DNA of 43,694 bases, taken from positions 1-43,694 of the forward strand of contig JAPLJI010000155.1 in assembly GCA_026388655.1 (NCBI GenBank), written 5' to 3'. The position numbers and the translations under genes are program-made. Position 1 is the first letter of the stretch, and each line of letters begins with the position of its first letter. The notes beneath the pieces were generated by a model that made no database searches, was not told the DNA's origin, and worked only from the letters and a program-made list of their open reading frames with translations. This DNA comes from Pseudomonadota bacterium (lineage in GTDB: Bacteria; Desulfobacterota; JAPLJL01). Shown piece after piece: positions 15,590 through 25,269 of this stretch.

Positions 15590-16630
15590 ATGGGATTGCT
15601 TCAATTCATCCTGATCTCTTACCTGGGGGTTTGCGGTTTCAGTTACGCCGATCTTTCCCGGGTTGAACCCCTGGCTCCGGTTATTATCACCACCGAAGAT
15701 CAGGCCCAGGTCTCCCTTTATCATTACCCGGGAAAGGATCCGCGGAAATCCCCGGTGGTTTTATTTCCAGAAATCGGCACCAACCGCTTGATTTTTAATC
15801 TTCCCTCCTCCGGCGGACTGGCCCCTTACCTGTCCCGAAAAGGGCGCGATGTCTGGGTGGTCGAATTCCGCGGGGCCGACGCAGTTCCCCGGGATTGGAG
15901 CCTGGACGAGCTTTTACGTTATGACCTCCCCCAGGCCCTAGCCCGGGTGGGAGCGGAAACCAAGCAGAAAAACCTTGACCTGGTAGGTTTGGGAATGGGC
16001 GGAACTATTCTGCTTGAGTATTTGTCTTCCAGACCCAATCCTGATCCCGGCATTGAAAAAATCATCTTGATAAATTCCCCCGGTTCAACGCAGGCCGTTA
16101 ATCAGGCAGTCAAGATCTGGGCGGAAAAAGCCCAAGGGCTGGGGGAAGGAGACAAAAGCGAGTTGATTGATCTCAAGAAGGCCTGCCAGACCCCCTGGCC
16201 GGCCGCCCCCGGTACGCTTTTCCATCTGCTTTTCTGGGGCCCGATTGCGGATGAAAAAACCGAAGCCGATGTCTGCCAGTCGGTTTTCGAACCCATCCCA
16301 CCCGGCCTGGCCAAACAGCTGGCCCGCTGGGTAGAAACCGGAATCTTAAGCTCCCGGGATGGCAAAAGAAATTTTTTAATTAATCTGAAGAATATCCGGA
16401 CCCCGGTTCTTTTTCTTTCCGGACAGCTCGACAATCTCGCCCCCCCCTGGCAGGCGGACTTCGCCTATCGGGCCATTTCCTCCGAGAAAAAGAAAATCCG
16501 CATCTTCGGGCGGGCCAACCGCTATCAGAAGGAATATGGCCACTTCGATCTTATCCTCGGGCCGGACGCTTTCCGCGAAGTCTATCCCTATCTTTTTAAC
16601 TGGTTAAAAAACCCTAAGAATTCAAATTGA
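15590..16630 (+). CDS. Exported alpha/beta hydrolase-fold protein lacking the nucleophile
   Basis: The 346 residues begin with a signal-like segment ending in FSYA-D (about residue 20), followed by an alpha/beta hydrolase fold resembling lipase or PHA-synthase-type hydrolases. The nucleophile elbow reads GLGMG (133-137), so glycine 135 sits where serine or cysteine is expected. The presumed acid D281 (SGQLDNLAPP) and histidine H318 (EYGHFD) are kept. It may be a non-catalytic binding protein or use different chemistry. The codon is GGA, not one base from a common serine codon other than AGA-type paths. It converges on the HisC-like genes. A diverged fragment of the same gene family lies at 21077-21191. 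Confidence 0.82.
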   Translation: MGLLQFILISYLGVCGFSYADLSRVEPLAPVIITTEDQAQVSLYHYPGKDPRKSPVVLFPEIGTNRLIFNLPSSGGLAPYLSRKGRDVWVVEFRGADAVPRDWSLDELLRYDLPQALARVGAETKQKNLDLVGLGMGGTILLEYLSSRPNPDPGIEKIILINSPGSTQAVNQAVKIWAEKAQGLGEGDKSELIDLKKACQTPWPAAPGTLFHLLFWGPIADEKTEADVCQSVFEPIPPGLAKQLARWVETGILSSRDGKRNFLINLKNIRTPVLFLSGQLDNLAPPWQADFAYRAISSEKKKIRIFGRANRYQKEYGHFDLILGPDAFREVYPYLFNWLKNPKNSN

Positions 16631-16889: not shown

Positions 16890-18266
16890 TTATTTAAAGA
16901 ATCTGCGGGGATAGGGATTAATCCCGAAACTTATAGCCACCCGGGCCGCCTTTCTCCCTTCGACTGTATCCAGATAATTTTCCGAGGACGCGGCGGGCGA
17001 GCCCAGCAAGTCTTCCAGAACCCGGATAAAATGCTCGTTTTCCTCCGGGAGACCCGGGCAGATCCGGAGCCAGTTGGTCATCTCCCATTCCTCCCCGGGG
17101 CGGAGCACGATTTTTTTGGTCAGGAGCTGGGTGAAAAACGTGACCCCGTCCCGCTGAACGTCGAAGATAACGTAACTTCCCTGGGAGCGGTGATAGGCCA
17201 GCCCCAGCCGGTCGAACTCCCCGTAGAGATATTCCCGGCCGTCCCGGTTATTTTCATAACTGCGCCGGGTTTGTGCTTTCGCGTCATCCAGGCTGGCCAG
17301 GGCGGCGGCCAGACCGGCCTGGCTGATGCCGGCGAAAATGGCCCGGGGGGAGATTTTTTTGGCCAGCTCGAGCGGGGCGATGGAATATCCGACCCGGAGC
17401 CCGGTCAGGGCGAAGGTGTGGGAGAAGGTTTGAACCTGCACCAGGTTTTGACCCTTTTCCACGTAATCAAGAAACCGGGGATAACTGCTTTTTTCGTTCG
17501 CGTCCATGAATTCGGGATCCGAATCATCAGCCACGATCACCGCCTGGGGATGGTGGGCAAAAACATATTGGGCGAATCCGTCAAACTCCGACCGGGTCAG
17601 GAAGCTGCCAATCGGGTTGTTAATATTGTTGAAATGAATAAGACGGATATGGGGATTATCCTCCAGGGCCTGCTTCATCGCCGGAAGATCCGGCTTGTGG
17701 GGATTTTCGGTGTGGGGAACCTTGATGATCTCGGCCCCGACCACCCGGGCCCGATCAATAATGACATGATAAGTCGGCCACTCGGTGAGAAAGGCTGACC
17801 CGGGGGTGAGAAAAGTATCGCAAAGCTGGTTCAGGGATTCCCAGGAACCGCATCCCAGGTTGATATTGTCCAACCCCAGGCCGGGGCCGGCGCGGTTATA
17901 TTTCAGGATCCCGGTCGTTAAATCCTCGTAAGAAAAATCCGGGTAGCGATTGATGTTTCCCGTTTCCGAAATTACCTCCCGCACCGCTTCCAAGGCCGAG
18001 GCGGACGGACCGACGGGATTTTCGTGATAACACATTCTCTGGTAGCCCTCGAAATAAAAGGAGTCGTTGGTGATCGCCCGGGCCTCCCGGAGAGGGATAA
18101 TCCGGGAACCCAGGGCGGAGACGGCTAGGGTTCCGCCGGCGGCCAGACCCAGCCTTTTTAAAAAGGACCGGCGGGAAAACTCCGCCCGCGCCTCCCCTTC
18201 CCGGCGGTGAAGCTGGTTTTGAAAAAGATCCCAGGGATTATATTTTTCAACCATTGGATAATTCAC
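16890..18266 (-). CDS. Tat-exported HisC-like PLP-fold protein with His in place of the PLP lysine (copy A)
   Basis: The 458-residue protein has a twin-arginine signal SRRSFLK (31-37) with a hydrophobic stretch after it, then a fold-type I aminotransferase domain most like histidinol-phosphate aminotransferase. Recognisable landmarks are ENPVGPS, GCGSWESLN, NNINNPIG (N217), ADDSDPEF and TFSHTFALTGLRVGY. In the last motif family members have TxSKxxxLAGLR with the Schiff-base lysine; here it is H283. The phosphate-binding R291 and a C-terminal substrate Arg (LRICPGL) remain. ATG codons at 18266 and 18254 are both possible; the former overlaps the RAYT gene by 20 bases. Function is unknown. Normal transamination is unlikely without the lysine. 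Confidence 0.85.
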   Translation of the reverse strand: MNYPMVEKYNPWDLFQNQLHRREGEARAEFSRRSFLKRLGLAAGGTLAVSALGSRIIPLREARAITNDSFYFEGYQRMCYHENPVGPSASALEAVREVISETGNINRYPDFSYEDLTTGILKYNRAGPGLGLDNINLGCGSWESLNQLCDTFLTPGSAFLTEWPTYHVIIDRARVVGAEIIKVPHTENPHKPDLPAMKQALEDNPHIRLIHFNNINNPIGSFLTRSEFDGFAQYVFAHHPQAVIVADDSDPEFMDANEKSSYPRFLDYVEKGQNLVQVQTFSHTFALTGLRVGYSIAPLELAKKISPRAIFAGISQAGLAAALASLDDAKAQTRRSYENNRDGREYLYGEFDRLGLAYHRSQGSYVIFDVQRDGVTFFTQLLTKKIVLRPGEEWEMTNWLRICPGLPEENEHFIRVLEDLLGSPAASSENYLDTVEGRKAARVAISFGINPYPRRFFK

Positions 18267-18894
18267 TCATTGCTTTTTGTTTCGTGCTGCCATAAATCAA
18301 ATTTTCGATTGTAGGGGCGACGCATGCGTCGCCTTTATTGTTAGGATTTTCCCTGTCGAACTGCCATTTTAAGGGATTTTTAATGATATATTCTCTCACC
18401 TGGTTTAATTCATCCTCATCCCTAATGATGTGTTCGTAATAATTTCTCTGCCAAATAGAAAACCTATTCCCCGGACCAATTCCATTGGCGCATCTGGTCG
18501 TCGCAGACTTGAAAGATCCAACAATGGAACCAATCGTTCTAGGTCCAGGATCACGGGGATTGCTGTTTGAATGATGTTTCTGTAGGGGCGACGCATGCGT
18601 CGCCCCTACATTAATAATTTGGATAATTCCATGAACATGATTTGGCATAATAACGAATTCATCCAATCCAATATTAGGAAAATGCTTGGGGATTTCCTCC
18701 CAACAATATTTTGCAATTCCTCCAATGGTTGTCGGTACTATTTTCTTATCGATTACTTCCCCAAAAATACATTTTTTTCTATTGGTGCACACCGTAACAA
18801 AATAAGCACCTGTTCCTGAATAATCATAATTTTTCAATCGAACTGAGCGTCGGCGTAGCTCTTCTAATTTACCGGCGCCAATCTTGATCTCCAT
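18247..18894 (-). CDS. REP-associated tyrosine transposase (RAYT, Y1/HUH family)
   Basis: RAYTs are single-copy relatives of IS200/IS605 transposases that cut REP hairpins. The 215-residue protein has the N-terminal RAYT-type start (RRRSVRLKNYDYSGTGAYFV), the HUH motif in MPNHVHG (83-89) and a catalytic tyrosine candidate at Y152/Y153 (QRNYYEHIIRDE). Two segments of the protein, about 95-105 (VGATHASPL) and 188-195 (GDACVAPT), are encoded by REP palindromes lying inside the gene. It begins immediately after the stop of HisC-like copy B, overlaps the start of copy A, and shares their direction. Confidence 0.9.
   Translation of the reverse strand: MEIKIGAGKLEELRRRSVRLKNYDYSGTGAYFVTVCTNRKKCIFGEVIDKKIVPTTIGGIAKYCWEEIPKHFPNIGLDEFVIMPNHVHGIIQIINVGATHASPLQKHHSNSNPRDPGPRTIGSIVGSFKSATTRCANGIGPGNRFSIWQRNYYEHIIRDEDELNQVREYIIKNPLKWQFDRENPNNKGDACVAPTIENLIYGSTKQKAMSELSNG
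18310..18333. repeat. Partial REP palindrome inside the RAYT gene
   Basis: Positions 18310-18333 match the left 24 bases of the complete REP at 18581, starting TGTAGGGGCGACGCATGCGT. The right arm decays (GCCTTTATTG instead of the GCCCCTACA arm). In the RAYT frame it encodes GDACVAPT near the C-terminus. Confidence 0.85.
18581..18610. repeat. Perfect 30-bp REP palindrome inside the RAYT gene
   Basis: All 30 bases form one perfect palindrome with arms beginning TGTAGGGGCGACGCA. It has the GTAG foot on both strands. It lies in frame in the RAYT gene and encodes VGATHASPL between the HUH motif and the tyrosine. There is no T-run, and the position within a coding frame argues against a terminator. 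Confidence 0.92.
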
Positions 18895-20136
18895 TCAATA
18901 CCCCCACCAGTAAAGCCTCGGGACGTTATCCGCGACCGGGGAATCGGCGCTGTATTTTCCCAGCGCCTCCGCAAATATCCGCCCTTCCTCCTCCGTCCCG
19001 GTGGAAGCCCTGATCCAGTTGGCATAGCGAGAATGAAAAGCGTTCCCGGATTGCACCTGAATGCCGTTTTTATAGAGGTAAGCCTGAATCCGATCTCCGG
19101 GGATCCCCGTATTGGCCAGGATAAAATTGGTTTCGGAAGGGATATATTCCCAACCCATTTCGGAAAATGCCTGGTAATAAACAGTTTTGATCTTCTGATT
19201 TAATTCCCGGGTTCGATTTAAATGCTCCCCGCCCTCTTTCAGGCTGGCGATCGCCGCCGCCCAGGCGATCCGGTTGTAGTTGGCCCCCAGCTTCCAGTGG
19301 AAACCCATCTCCGAGAGCGAGGGGGTGCGCAGGCCTCCCATCAGGTCGGCCAATTCCAGGGGCGCCAGGGCGTATCCCGCCCGGGCCCCGGCCAGGCCGT
19401 AGGCGTGCGAAAAGGTGCGGACCACGACCAGCGGCCCCTCCCCGAGGTAATCCCGGCCGGAGACGAAATCCGGGTCCTCAACGTAATGGCCATAGGCCTC
19501 GTCGATGACGATGATCGTTTCCGGGTTTTTCTGCCAGGCCGAGGCCAGAAAATTTTCCAGATCATTCTTTTTAATCACCAGGCCGGTGGGATTATTGGGG
19601 TTGCAGAGGAAAATAACCCGGGTGGCTTGATTTACCTCGGAAGCCAGCGCATCCAAGTCAATGCCGTGATCGTTCCTGTTTTCGACCTCCTTGATTTCCG
19701 CCCCCCAGAGGCCGGCGTATTCCGAAGGAAGCCGGAAAGTCGGGACCGCGGTCAGGAAAACGTCCCCGGCGGTCAGGAAGCAGGAAGCGATGATGTTGAA
19801 AATCTCGCTCGACCCGCAGCCGGGCACCACGTTTTCCGGCGCCAGGTTATGAAACTCGGCGATGGCTTTGAAAAGATCCCCCTGGAGAAAATCCGGGTAG
19901 CGGTTCAGGCCGGTCAGGGTTCGGGGTTTATTCCGCTCCGCCTCCATGGCTTCCCGCGCCTTCGGACAGGGACCGAGCGGGTTTTCGTTGAAGGCCAGGC
20001 GGATAAATTCCTCACCTTTTTTATTTCCTCCCCCGCAGGAAGAAAGGCTTCCCGCCAGCACCAGCCCCCCGGCCAGGACCAGCCCTTCCCGGATCAATTC
20101 CCGCCGGGACAAATTTTCAGATTTGTTATCGATCAT
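18895..20136 (-). CDS. Tat lipoprotein, HisC-like PLP-fold protein with His in place of the PLP lysine (copy B)
   Basis: From the ATG at 20136 the protein has 413 residues. It starts with a twin-arginine motif SRRELIR (10-16), a hydrophobic run, and a lipobox SLSSC (Cys34), so it should be a Tat-exported lipoprotein. A longer open frame reaches 20259 but runs through repeat sequence, so it is rejected. The HisC-like domain keeps FNENPLGP, PGCGSSEI, CNPNNPTG (N182), VIDEAY (D212) and the C-terminal Arg in WIRASTGT. In TFSHAYGLAGARAGY the Schiff-base lysine is replaced by H244. It is closer to standard HisC than copy A. The RAYT gene and copy A follow downstream in the same direction. Confidence 0.87.
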   Translation of the reverse strand: MIDNKSENLSRRELIREGLVLAGGLVLAGSLSSCGGGNKKGEEFIRLAFNENPLGPCPKAREAMEAERNKPRTLTGLNRYPDFLQGDLFKAIAEFHNLAPENVVPGCGSSEIFNIIASCFLTAGDVFLTAVPTFRLPSEYAGLWGAEIKEVENRNDHGIDLDALASEVNQATRVIFLCNPNNPTGLVIKKNDLENFLASAWQKNPETIIVIDEAYGHYVEDPDFVSGRDYLGEGPLVVVRTFSHAYGLAGARAGYALAPLELADLMGGLRTPSLSEMGFHWKLGANYNRIAWAAAIASLKEGGEHLNRTRELNQKIKTVYYQAFSEMGWEYIPSETNFILANTGIPGDRIQAYLYKNGIQVQSGNAFHSRYANWIRASTGTEEEGRIFAEALGKYSADSPVADNVPRLYWWGY

Positions 20137-20562: not shown

Positions 20563-21102
20563 TCAATTTGTAATCCCCTTACCTCTCAGAGTTTTAATGG
20601 ATTCGCTTATCACCCTGCCCTGCTCTTCAATTATATTCAGAAGCTCTTCAGGCGTGCGGGTGTCTTCCTCGTCCCCAATCGAACTTTCCAGAAAAACCGG
20701 TTCCTCGCTAAATATTTGGTCAATAGGAATATCGGCTCTTTCATCTGCCGGGGCCGAGCCCAGGGTATCTTCCTCGTCCCCGATCGGGCTTTCCAGGGAA
20801 ACCGTTTCCCGGTTCAGTTTGAGAATCTCCGCCACCCGGTCATCCGGCATCCCCAGGCGTTCCCCGATCTCCTTCAGGGAGGGATCGCGGCCAAGCTCGC
20901 GGGAAAGCAACTCTACGGCGCGGTTAAATTTAATCAAAGTGTCGCCCATGTGCACCGGGACCCGGACGGTCCGGGACTTGTCGGCGATGGCCCGGATAAT
21001 GGACTGCCGGATCCACCAGGTGGCGTAAGTGGAAAATTTGAACCCCCGGCGGAAATCGTATTTCTCCACCGCCCGCATCAGGCCCAGGTCTCTTTTTATC
21101 AT
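20563..21102 (-). pseudogene. Truncated sigma-70 fragment fused at a recombination junction
   Basis: The 179-residue open frame is about 90% identical by eye to the RpoD of this window from region 2.3 ([20 protein letters not shown]) through region 3 and the 3.2 finger ([14 protein letters not shown]). It then contains a second finger-like copy ([12 protein letters not shown]) and ends without region 4. The first residues MIKRDL come from the adjacent hydrolase fragment. So the apparent ATG was created by the fusion and has no ribosome binding site. It lacks regions 1.2, 2.1 and 4 and cannot be a normal sigma factor. Most likely it is a decaying fragment; a small expressed sigma-like protein is a less likely alternative. 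Confidence 0.85.
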
Positions 21103-21191
21103 TACACGGGAAAGGATCCGCGGAAACCCCCGGTGGTTTTATTTCCAGAAATCGGCACCAACCACCTGATTTTTGACCTCCCCTCCTCCGG
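21077..21191 (+). pseudogene. Fragment of the alpha/beta hydrolase gene
   Basis: This segment aligns base for base, with scattered differences, to 15699-15813 inside the hydrolase gene; for example TGGTTTTATTTCCAGAAATC occurs in both. It encodes [20 protein letters not shown]. The left edge begins at ATCAGGCCCAGGT, a 13-base sequence also present in rpoD. The right edge ends at CCCTCCTCCGG. Confidence 0.9.
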
Positions 21192-21194
21192 ATC

Positions 21195-21428
21195 GGCGAG
21201 CGGAGAGGCTTGGAAAAGTACCGGGATCAAAACATCGAGATCTTCAACCGCCTGGGGGTAAAAACTATCATCACCTCCTGGGCCGGGTGCACCAGCACTT
21301 TCAGGGAAGAATACGCCGGCAAACTCAACTGCGAGGTCCGGCACGCGATTGAATATTTTGATCGCCTCATCTCCCAGGGGAAAATCCGGCCAAAAAATCG
21401 ATTGACAGGGTTTCAAAAAGTGGATTAG
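21195..21428 (+). pseudogene. Fragment of a CCG-domain Fe-S (HdrB/GlpC-like) protein
   Basis: The frame encodes EIFNRLGVKTIITSWAGC followed by STFREEYAGKLNCEVRHAIE and YFDRLISQGKIRP. This is the C-terminal part of a CCG (cysteine-rich) domain as in heterodisulfide-reductase-like and glycolate/lactate oxidase subunits, where the motif is TSCxGC. The first cysteine of that CxxC is tryptophan here (TGG). No start, no N-terminal domain and no first CCG motif are present. It is the third fragment of the mosaic and its last codons overlap the promoter of the next gene. Confidence 0.7.
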
Positions 21429-23775: not shown

Positions 23776-25269
23776 TTAATTGCGGCTGAGTTCTTTCTCG
23801 TAACCGAAGAATTCCTTCAGGGTGTCCCCCTTGCCCGATTCCTTCAGCTTCTTCAGGGCCCGGGCCTCGATCTGGCGGATGCGCTCGCGGGTGATGTTGA
23901 AGACCTTGCCGATTTCCTCGAGGGTGTACTCGTTGTTCTCCTCGATGCCGAACCGCATCCGCAAAATCTTCTCCTCCCGGGGAGAGAGGGTGGAAAGCGC
24001 CTCGCGGGTGCGGTCGGAAAGGTTCATTTTCGCGGCCAGGTCAATGGGGGCCTCGGTTCGCTCGTCGGCCAGGACCGAGCCCAGGGTGTCTTCCTCGTCC
24101 CCGATCGGGCTTTCCAGGGAAACCGGCTCCCGGTTCAGCTTGAGAATCTCAGCCACCCGGTCGTCCGGCATCTGCAGGCGTTCCCCGATCTCCTTCAGGG
24201 TGGGATCGCGCCCGAGCTCGCGGGAAAGCTCCGCGGTGGCGCGGTTGAAATGCAAAAGGGTGTCGCCCATATGCACGGGGACCCGGATGGTCCGGGATTT
24301 GTCGGCGATGGCCCGGATAATGGACTGCCGGATCCACCAGGTGGCGTAAGTGGAAAATTTGAACCCCCGGCGGAAATCGTATTTCTCCACCGCCCGCATC
24401 AGGCCCAGGTTTCCTTCCTGGATCAAATCCAGGAAGGAAAGCCCCCGGTTCAGGTAACGCTTGGCGATGCTCACGACCAGGCGGAGATTCCCCTGAATGA
24501 ACTTGTGCCGGGCTTCCTGGATTTCCCCCAGGGGTTTCTCCAGGATGAAAAGCAGTCTCTCCCGATCCCGGTTCTTCACCTCGATGTCCACGGGGAAGAT
24601 CTCGTCCGGAACCAGGCGGACCGATTGCGGGCAATCCTGCAAGGCACCGGAAAACTTGAAGATAAATCCCTCGATAAATTCGCCGCGGAGCGGCAGATTC
24701 TGCAGATGGATTTTTATTTTTTCCCGGTTCTCGGTCATCTTGGTTTTAATCCGCTTCTTGCCGATGGCGGTGTAGTTGTTCTTTCTTAGATTGTTCTCCA
24801 CCGTCCGGTATTCTCCCTCCAGCTTGTCGATCTGCCGCAGGATCGCGAGGACTTTTTTAGCCTTGTCCGTCCGGTAAGTAGGTTTCTCAATGAGGGGATC
24901 GGTCGGGGTTATATTGAAAGCCATTTCCAGCTCCGAATCCCGTTTTAAAATTTCCCGAAGGGAATAAATGAAGGCATCCGTTTTGAACAGGAACTCGATC
25001 AGCTTGTTCCGGGCGTCCTCGATTTTCCGGCCCAGCTCCACCTCCTCCTGGCTGGAAAGGAGTTCATAATCCCCCATGTCCCGGAAGTACTGCTGGGAAT
25101 AGTCAATCTCAATTTCTTCCTTACGGTAAGTGGGGATCTGGACCAGATCCTCGGGAAGATCCTGGGGCTCCTCCGCCAGAGGTTCTTCCAGGACGGGCAA
25201 ACCCACGCTGCTTTCGAGTTCCAGCTCGGGGCTTTTCTGTATCTCGGTTTTTTTCTTTGTTTTTTTCAT
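23776..25269 (-). CDS. rpoD: Primary sigma factor RpoD
   Basis: The 497-residue protein has region 1.2 (YFRDMGDYELLSSQEEVELG), a moderate non-conserved region, region 2 (RLVVSIAKRYLNRGLSFLDL, then [19 protein letters not shown]), region 3 with the finger [13 protein letters not shown], and region 4 (STLSPREEKILRMRFGI; EEIGKVFNITRERIRQIEAR). These are the full marks of a housekeeping sigma-70. The N-terminal region 1.1 is reduced to a charged stretch. It has its own terminator at 23721-23749. A partial diverged copy of its middle lies at 20563-21102. Confidence 0.97.
   Translation of the reverse strand: MKKTKKKTEIQKSPELELESSVGLPVLEEPLAEEPQDLPEDLVQIPTYRKEEIEIDYSQQYFRDMGDYELLSSQEEVELGRKIEDARNKLIEFLFKTDAFIYSLREILKRDSELEMAFNITPTDPLIEKPTYRTDKAKKVLAILRQIDKLEGEYRTVENNLRKNNYTAIGKKRIKTKMTENREKIKIHLQNLPLRGEFIEGFIFKFSGALQDCPQSVRLVPDEIFPVDIEVKNRDRERLLFILEKPLGEIQEARHKFIQGNLRLVVSIAKRYLNRGLSFLDLIQEGNLGLMRAVEKYDFRRGFKFSTYATWWIRQSIIRAIADKSRTIRVPVHMGDTLLHFNRATAELSRELGRDPTLKEIGERLQMPDDRVAEILKLNREPVSLESPIGDEEDTLGSVLADERTEAPIDLAAKMNLSDRTREALSTLSPREEKILRMRFGIEENNEYTLEEIGKVFNITRERIRQIEARALKKLKESGKGDTLKEFFGYEKELSRN

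Follow-up and report, generated by a model that had tools for sequence, protein, structure and literature searches.

A rare pair of exported HisC-like proteins that lack the Schiff-base lysine in a member of the Desulfobacterota

Introduction

What can two neighboring HisC-like proteins do when both carry export signals and neither retains the lysine that forms the Schiff base with the cofactor? This question is raised by a pair of genes, here called copy A and copy B, on a contig of a Pseudomonadota bacterium (JAPLJI010000155.1 of assembly GCA_026388655.1, Desulfobacterota in the GTDB lineage). The window analyzed is the whole stretch of 43,694 nucleotides. An initial annotation, made from the letters and open reading frames of the window, had drawn attention to a histidine at the lysine position in both copies, and had considered that this change might define a periplasmic branch of the family. 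Here, we compare both proteins with their relatives, and weigh a two-subunit module against other readings of the pair.

Two HisC-like proteins with export signals

Both genes are intact open reading frames (Table 1). Copy A starts with a GTG at 18266, with an ATG at 18254 as a plausible alternative, and copy B starts with an ATG at 20136. Both proteins matched the Pfam domain Aminotran_1_2 (E-values of 3.3e-38 for A and 3.5e-49 for B), and copy B also matched Aminotran_5 weakly. Scores on the hisC model TIGR01141 were 187.9 bits for A and 234.1 bits for B, both below the curated cut-off of 276.55 bits. The AlphaFold2 models showed a confident HisC fold with a low-confidence N-terminus in each case (mean pLDDT of 86.5 for A and 87.1 for B), and the best PDB matches of both models were HisC-type enzymes. 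The two copies are only about 30% identical to each other, and they differ in a B-specific insert and at the position equivalent to Tyr187 of E. coli HisC.

The export signals were read by eye from the sequence. Copy A carries SRRSFLK followed by an AxA cleavage site between REARA and IT, and such sites are also present in the copy A relatives (REARA, RTARA, and RANA). Copy B carries SRRELIR followed by the lipobox LSSC. The annotation of both copies as HisC-like proteins with twin-arginine signals, and of copy B as a lipoprotein, was thereby borne out.

Table 1. Positions of the genes, codons, and related family members discussed in the text.
Feature	Record	Position	Strand	Remarks
Copy A, Tat-signal HisC-like protein	window	16890..18266	minus	458 aa; Lys to His (H283); Tyr187 equivalent to Asp (D250)
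CAC codon of A H283	window	17418..17420	minus	Schiff-base lysine position (E. coli HisC K214)
REP-associated tyrosine transposase-like ORF, between B and A	window	18247..18894	minus	insertion, intact-looking
Copy B, HisC-like lipoprotein with twin-Arg signal	window	18895..20136	minus	413 aa; Lys to His (H244)
CAC codon of B H244	window	19405..19407	minus	Schiff-base lysine position
Separate HisC/GntC-like family member	L026	4063-5487	-
Separate HisC/GntC-like family member	L029	4784-6229	-
Separate HisC/GntC-like family member	L030	1442-2989	-
Separate HisC/GntC-like family member	L032	968-2381	+

The cofactor site is retained except for the lysine, and for a second contact in copy A

The motifs that contain the histidine are QTFSHTFALTGLRVGY in copy A (exact match at 17385-17426) and RTFSHAYGLAGARAGY in copy B (exact match at 19372-19413), with 0.00 chance matches expected from shuffles in each case. 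In an alignment of 46 proteins, which comprised A, B, and their relatives, with E. coli HisC (L125) as the residue reference, H283 and H244 aligned without gaps with K214, confirming the substitution as first described, with the same codon in both copies. N157, D184, S213, and R222 were invariant (46 of 46), R335 was found in 45 and Y55 in 43 of the proteins, and all of these residues were kept in the six A- and B-type proteins. The claim that the other cofactor residues remain holds in full for copy B, which also keeps Y187, but only in part for copy A, where the equivalent of Tyr187 is an aspartate within ADDSDPEF while the other contacts are kept. Two cofactor contacts, rather than one, are thus altered in copy A, and the aspartate may weaken its binding of B6.

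No lysine was invariant across the six A- and B-type proteins. Lysines shared by all A-type proteins (K122, K182, and K198) or by all B-type proteins (K189 and K311) aligned with no active-site position of E. coli HisC, as judged from the alignment rather than from coordinates. On the basis of sequence, neither protein is expected to be able to form the usual internal aldimine. As the phosphate-cup residues and the aspartate of the pyridine nitrogen are kept while the lysine is lost, the B6 phosphate would be held without such an aldimine. The window genome encodes a separate, ordinary HisC on contig C112, in which the lysine is kept (TFSKIHGLAGLRIGY).

The two genes form a conserved module

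A second species of the same genus (G001; record JAPLJL010000188.1) contains both genes in the same order, with proteins 85% (A) and 84% (B) identical to those of the window and histidine in both; its B relative carries SRRELIR and the lipobox LSAC (read by eye). A more distant pair was found in a genome of another class of the same phylum (G656), in which the end of the B-type gene overlaps the start of the A-type gene. The A-type protein of G656 is 38% identical to copy A and keeps the histidine (QTFSHIFGITGLRLGY), along with the A-specific motifs MCYHENPxGP, HFNxINNPxGS, ADDSDPEF, and TFSHxF. Since the histidine is kept alongside these motifs at such a distance, it probably matters in A. 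The B-type protein of G656 has a phenylalanine at the lysine position instead (RTASFAYGMAGLRCGY), suggesting that B needs no base there and making a single histidine chemistry common to both copies unlikely. Conservation of the histidine therefore extends to both copies within the genus, but across classes to A only. The signal of the G656 B-type protein, again read by eye, has a lipobox (LSGC) with a single arginine (TRNAFFK), so that its export route is unsure.

A search of 395 genomes of the phylum recovered B from 3 (E<1e-60) and A from the same 3, and neither occurred alone. Both were absent from the third species of the genus (G002), showing that the pair can be lost. Profile searches found no further pairs in the 42 genomes of the class of G656 (B profile) or in the 3 genomes of the class of the window genome (A profile). 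The A profile had no match among viral contigs, and the matches in plasmid records were of HisC type only, with less than 60% identity. The pair is thus rare and patchy, so far always found together, and known from two independent lineages. We conclude that A and B constitute a conserved two-gene module, which the initial annotation had missed.

Between the window genome and G001, A had a dN/dS of 0.10 and B one of 0.32, compared with 0.12-0.22 for five flanking genes. Both genes are under purifying selection, and the initial annotation had likewise argued for selection over decay.

Genomic context of the pair

The transposase-like ORF between the two genes starts directly after the stop of B, and its end overlaps the start of A, leaving neither gene broken. 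It occupies the same site in G001 and is absent from G656; we consider it an insertion without a likely role in what the pair does. The ORF contains a palindrome-like sequence, GTAGGGGCGACGCATGCGTCGCCCCTAC. In a comparison of window positions 18200-20000 with L015, dS between the window genome and G001 was 0.10 for this ORF and 0.31 for B, against 0.56-1.13 for A and the flanking genes. The low values may reflect a recombination tract around the element.

Genes for a hydrolase, MoeA, ResB, and a sigma factor flank the pair in the window genome and in G001, but not in G656. As the neighbors differ, the gene context suggests no substrate. Downstream of the A gene, G656 carries a co-oriented glyoxalase / methylmalonyl-CoA-epimerase-like gene (L120 11744-12322) that is absent beside the pair in the window. 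By eye, positions 20563-21102 of the window (minus strand) hold a truncated sigma-factor-like ORF that repeats part of the full-length sigma-factor gene (23776-25269, minus strand), and positions 21102-21416 resemble a fragment of the hydrolase gene (15590-16630). Searches with blastn of pieces against G001 agreed with both repeats.

Histidine at the lysine position in other HisC-like proteins

The pattern [FL]SHx[YF][GA]x[AT]GxRxG[YF] was scanned over genome contigs of 84,980 species, with serine codons limited to TCN. This returned 12 loci: 2 Tat-HisC genes of Acidobacteriota, 3 from Anaerobiospirillum, 1 each from Nocardia and Cryptoclostridium, 4 from a separate family of about 470 amino acids, and the 1 of G001.

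Of 299 genomes of the Acidobacteriota class, 26 encode a protein closely related to the Tat-HisC protein. Nearly all of these relatives have lysine, in an RTFSK motif, and histidine was found only in L038 and L039. Most Tat-bearing HisC-like proteins, as sampled in this phylum, thus keep the lysine within an otherwise identical motif, the very observation that the initial annotation had named beforehand as speaking against its proposal. The proposal that histidine marks a Tat-HisC branch was dropped, and the narrower claim on A and B was kept. The phylogenetic tree placed A and B in one group with the G656 proteins and the Tat proteins of Acidobacteriota, at a support of 92/97, just below the mark for firm support of the tool used, and the A clade was supported at 100/100. 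As L038 and L039 were nested in a lysine-bearing clade, histidine must have arisen separately there, and a single origin for all exported proteins of the histidine type was rejected. In the best tree, A and B descended from one lysine-less ancestor, but with a support of only 37/9.6, and the point is best regarded as undecided.

The Acidobacteriota genes with histidine (L028 2541-3662 and L031 2987-4111) share upstream neighbors that look, by eye, like SCO1-type and VCBS/UnbV-type genes; the lysine-bearing copies examined had no SCO1-like match next to them. The separate family (Table 1), found in Elusimicrobia, Dehalococcoidia, and Dadabacteria, has no twin-arginine motif and carries LSHG[FY]G[LM]AG. 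The positions of K214 and Y187 were both histidine in the 3 members aligned, and the family can be read as another line without the lysine, one that is conserved in more than one phylum. The proteins from Anaerobiospirillum (L034, L035, and L027), Cryptoclostridium (L036), and Nocardia (L033) are HisC-like, with histidine at the lysine position and no twin-arginine signal detected, and apparently represent scattered cases.

A possible two-subunit module and alternative readings

Our tentative reading, which we hold with less than even confidence, is that A and B make up a rare exported module of two subunits, derived from a HisC-like aminotransferase, in which B6 is held non-covalently. With its Tat signal and AxA cleavage site, A would be the soluble periplasmic subunit, and B, as a lipoprotein, would tether both to the membrane. 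Active sites of fold-type I enzymes span the dimer interface, and A and B would for this reason probably pair as a heterodimer. Their adjacency and co-occurrence, together with the retained histidine in A and the phenylalanine in B, suggest a heterodimer in which the site of A is altered and B plays a supporting part. The cofactor, which could be PMP, PLP, or a PLP-amine adduct, would be held non-covalently by both subunits, since the phosphate-cup residues and the pyridine-nitrogen aspartate are present in each and neither would form an internal aldimine. The conserved histidine of A, which lies next to the aspartate found in place of Tyr187, could serve as an acid/base like that of the PMP enzymes ColD and E1, and B, which tolerates phenylalanine, is probably a non-catalytic partner. 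A more specific version, in which an obligate exported heterodimer uses non-covalent PMP with a catalytic histidine in one subunit only, seems unlikely as a whole. Under this version, the solution of ColD would have been reinvented in a HisC branch on the periplasmic face, by proteins that must attain their Tat-exportable fold with no internal aldimine.

The most serious alternative, which we consider possible if somewhat doubtful, is that both proteins are pseudoenzymes that make no use of B6, and that the HisC fold now serves, in the periplasm, to bind or sense some other ligand, either phosphorylated or cationic, or a metal at the Asp/His cluster of A. The loss of lysine from both subunits, the phenylalanine in one B-type protein, and the change from Tyr187 to Asp in A would all fit such a role, and lysine-less fold-type I relatives elsewhere, such as Rv3778c, have been judged non-catalytic (PMC12910592). 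However, the invariance of the phosphate-cup residues and the pyridine aspartate would be unexpected if no B6 phosphate were bound, and the metal site would be a guess from the sequence.

It is rather improbable that A and B each form a homodimer, with a ligand or reaction of its own, and are linked by co-transcription only. Their low mutual identity and the differences at Tyr187 and in the insert are in line with this, but the pair co-occurs, adjacent and in the same order, in two classes. If the two were ordinary PLP transaminases and a different lysine formed the Schiff base, it would be clear why the remainder of the cofactor site is kept, but this is very improbable given that no lysine is common to all six proteins and that those invariant in A or B align away from the active site. 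Equally hard to credit is that they are decaying paralogues on the way to becoming pseudogenes, despite the loss of both genes from G002, as the frames are open in three genomes, the dN/dS values are low, the A motifs are invariant across classes, and a change from Lys to His requires two base changes.

Relation to known systems and implications

To our knowledge, there are few Tat-exported B6 enzymes. A and B share with HisC (TIGR01141) the fold and the positions N157, D184, S213, R222, R335, and Tyr55, but differ in lacking the Schiff-base lysine, in scoring below the family cut-off, and in being exported and paired. Closer likenesses are the periplasmic transaminase PtaA of Pseudomonas (NF051461) and PRK09105 (NF006580), which are Tat-exported and HisC-like, and profile scores group A and B with this exported clade. 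PtaA is, however, an ordinary PLP transaminase (PMC6206403), A and B reach only 101.1 and 158.8 bits against its cut-off of 500 bits, they score far below the cut-off of PRK09105 as well, and they lack the lysine. Judged by these comparisons, A and B are neither HisC nor PtaA, but a variant within the exported HisC-like group. The Acidobacteriota proteins L038 and L039 share the twin-arginine signal and FSH motif, but represent an independent change inside a lysine clade and have no partner copy alongside.

Outside this group, histidine replaces the Schiff-base lysine of fold-type I proteins in the PMP-dependent sugar 3-dehydratases ColD, E1, and SpnQ (PMC8987622). These belong to another subfamily, are cytoplasmic, and act on nucleotide-sugars, and their use of PMP is known, while that of A and B is inferred. 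The sugar-aminotransferase family of ColD and E1 was not among the Pfam matches of A and B at E<=0.001. Serine palmitoyltransferase likewise consists of two homologous fold-type I subunits, of which LCB1 is a lysine-less half of the enzyme (PMC3794620); its partner LCB2 keeps the lysine, unlike either A or B. Finally, PvdN with a mutated lysine was reported to be stuck in the membrane (PMC6206403); A and B would need a different route to a Tat-competent fold.

An exported pair in which the lysine is lost from both halves raises the questions of how the fold is stabilized and of what an aldimine-free B6 site does in the periplasm. With this pair, pseudoenzyme pairing could also be tested in a setting other than sphingolipid synthesis, and the repeated origin of histidine among exported HisC-like proteins suggests a recurrent change of cofactor use in this group.
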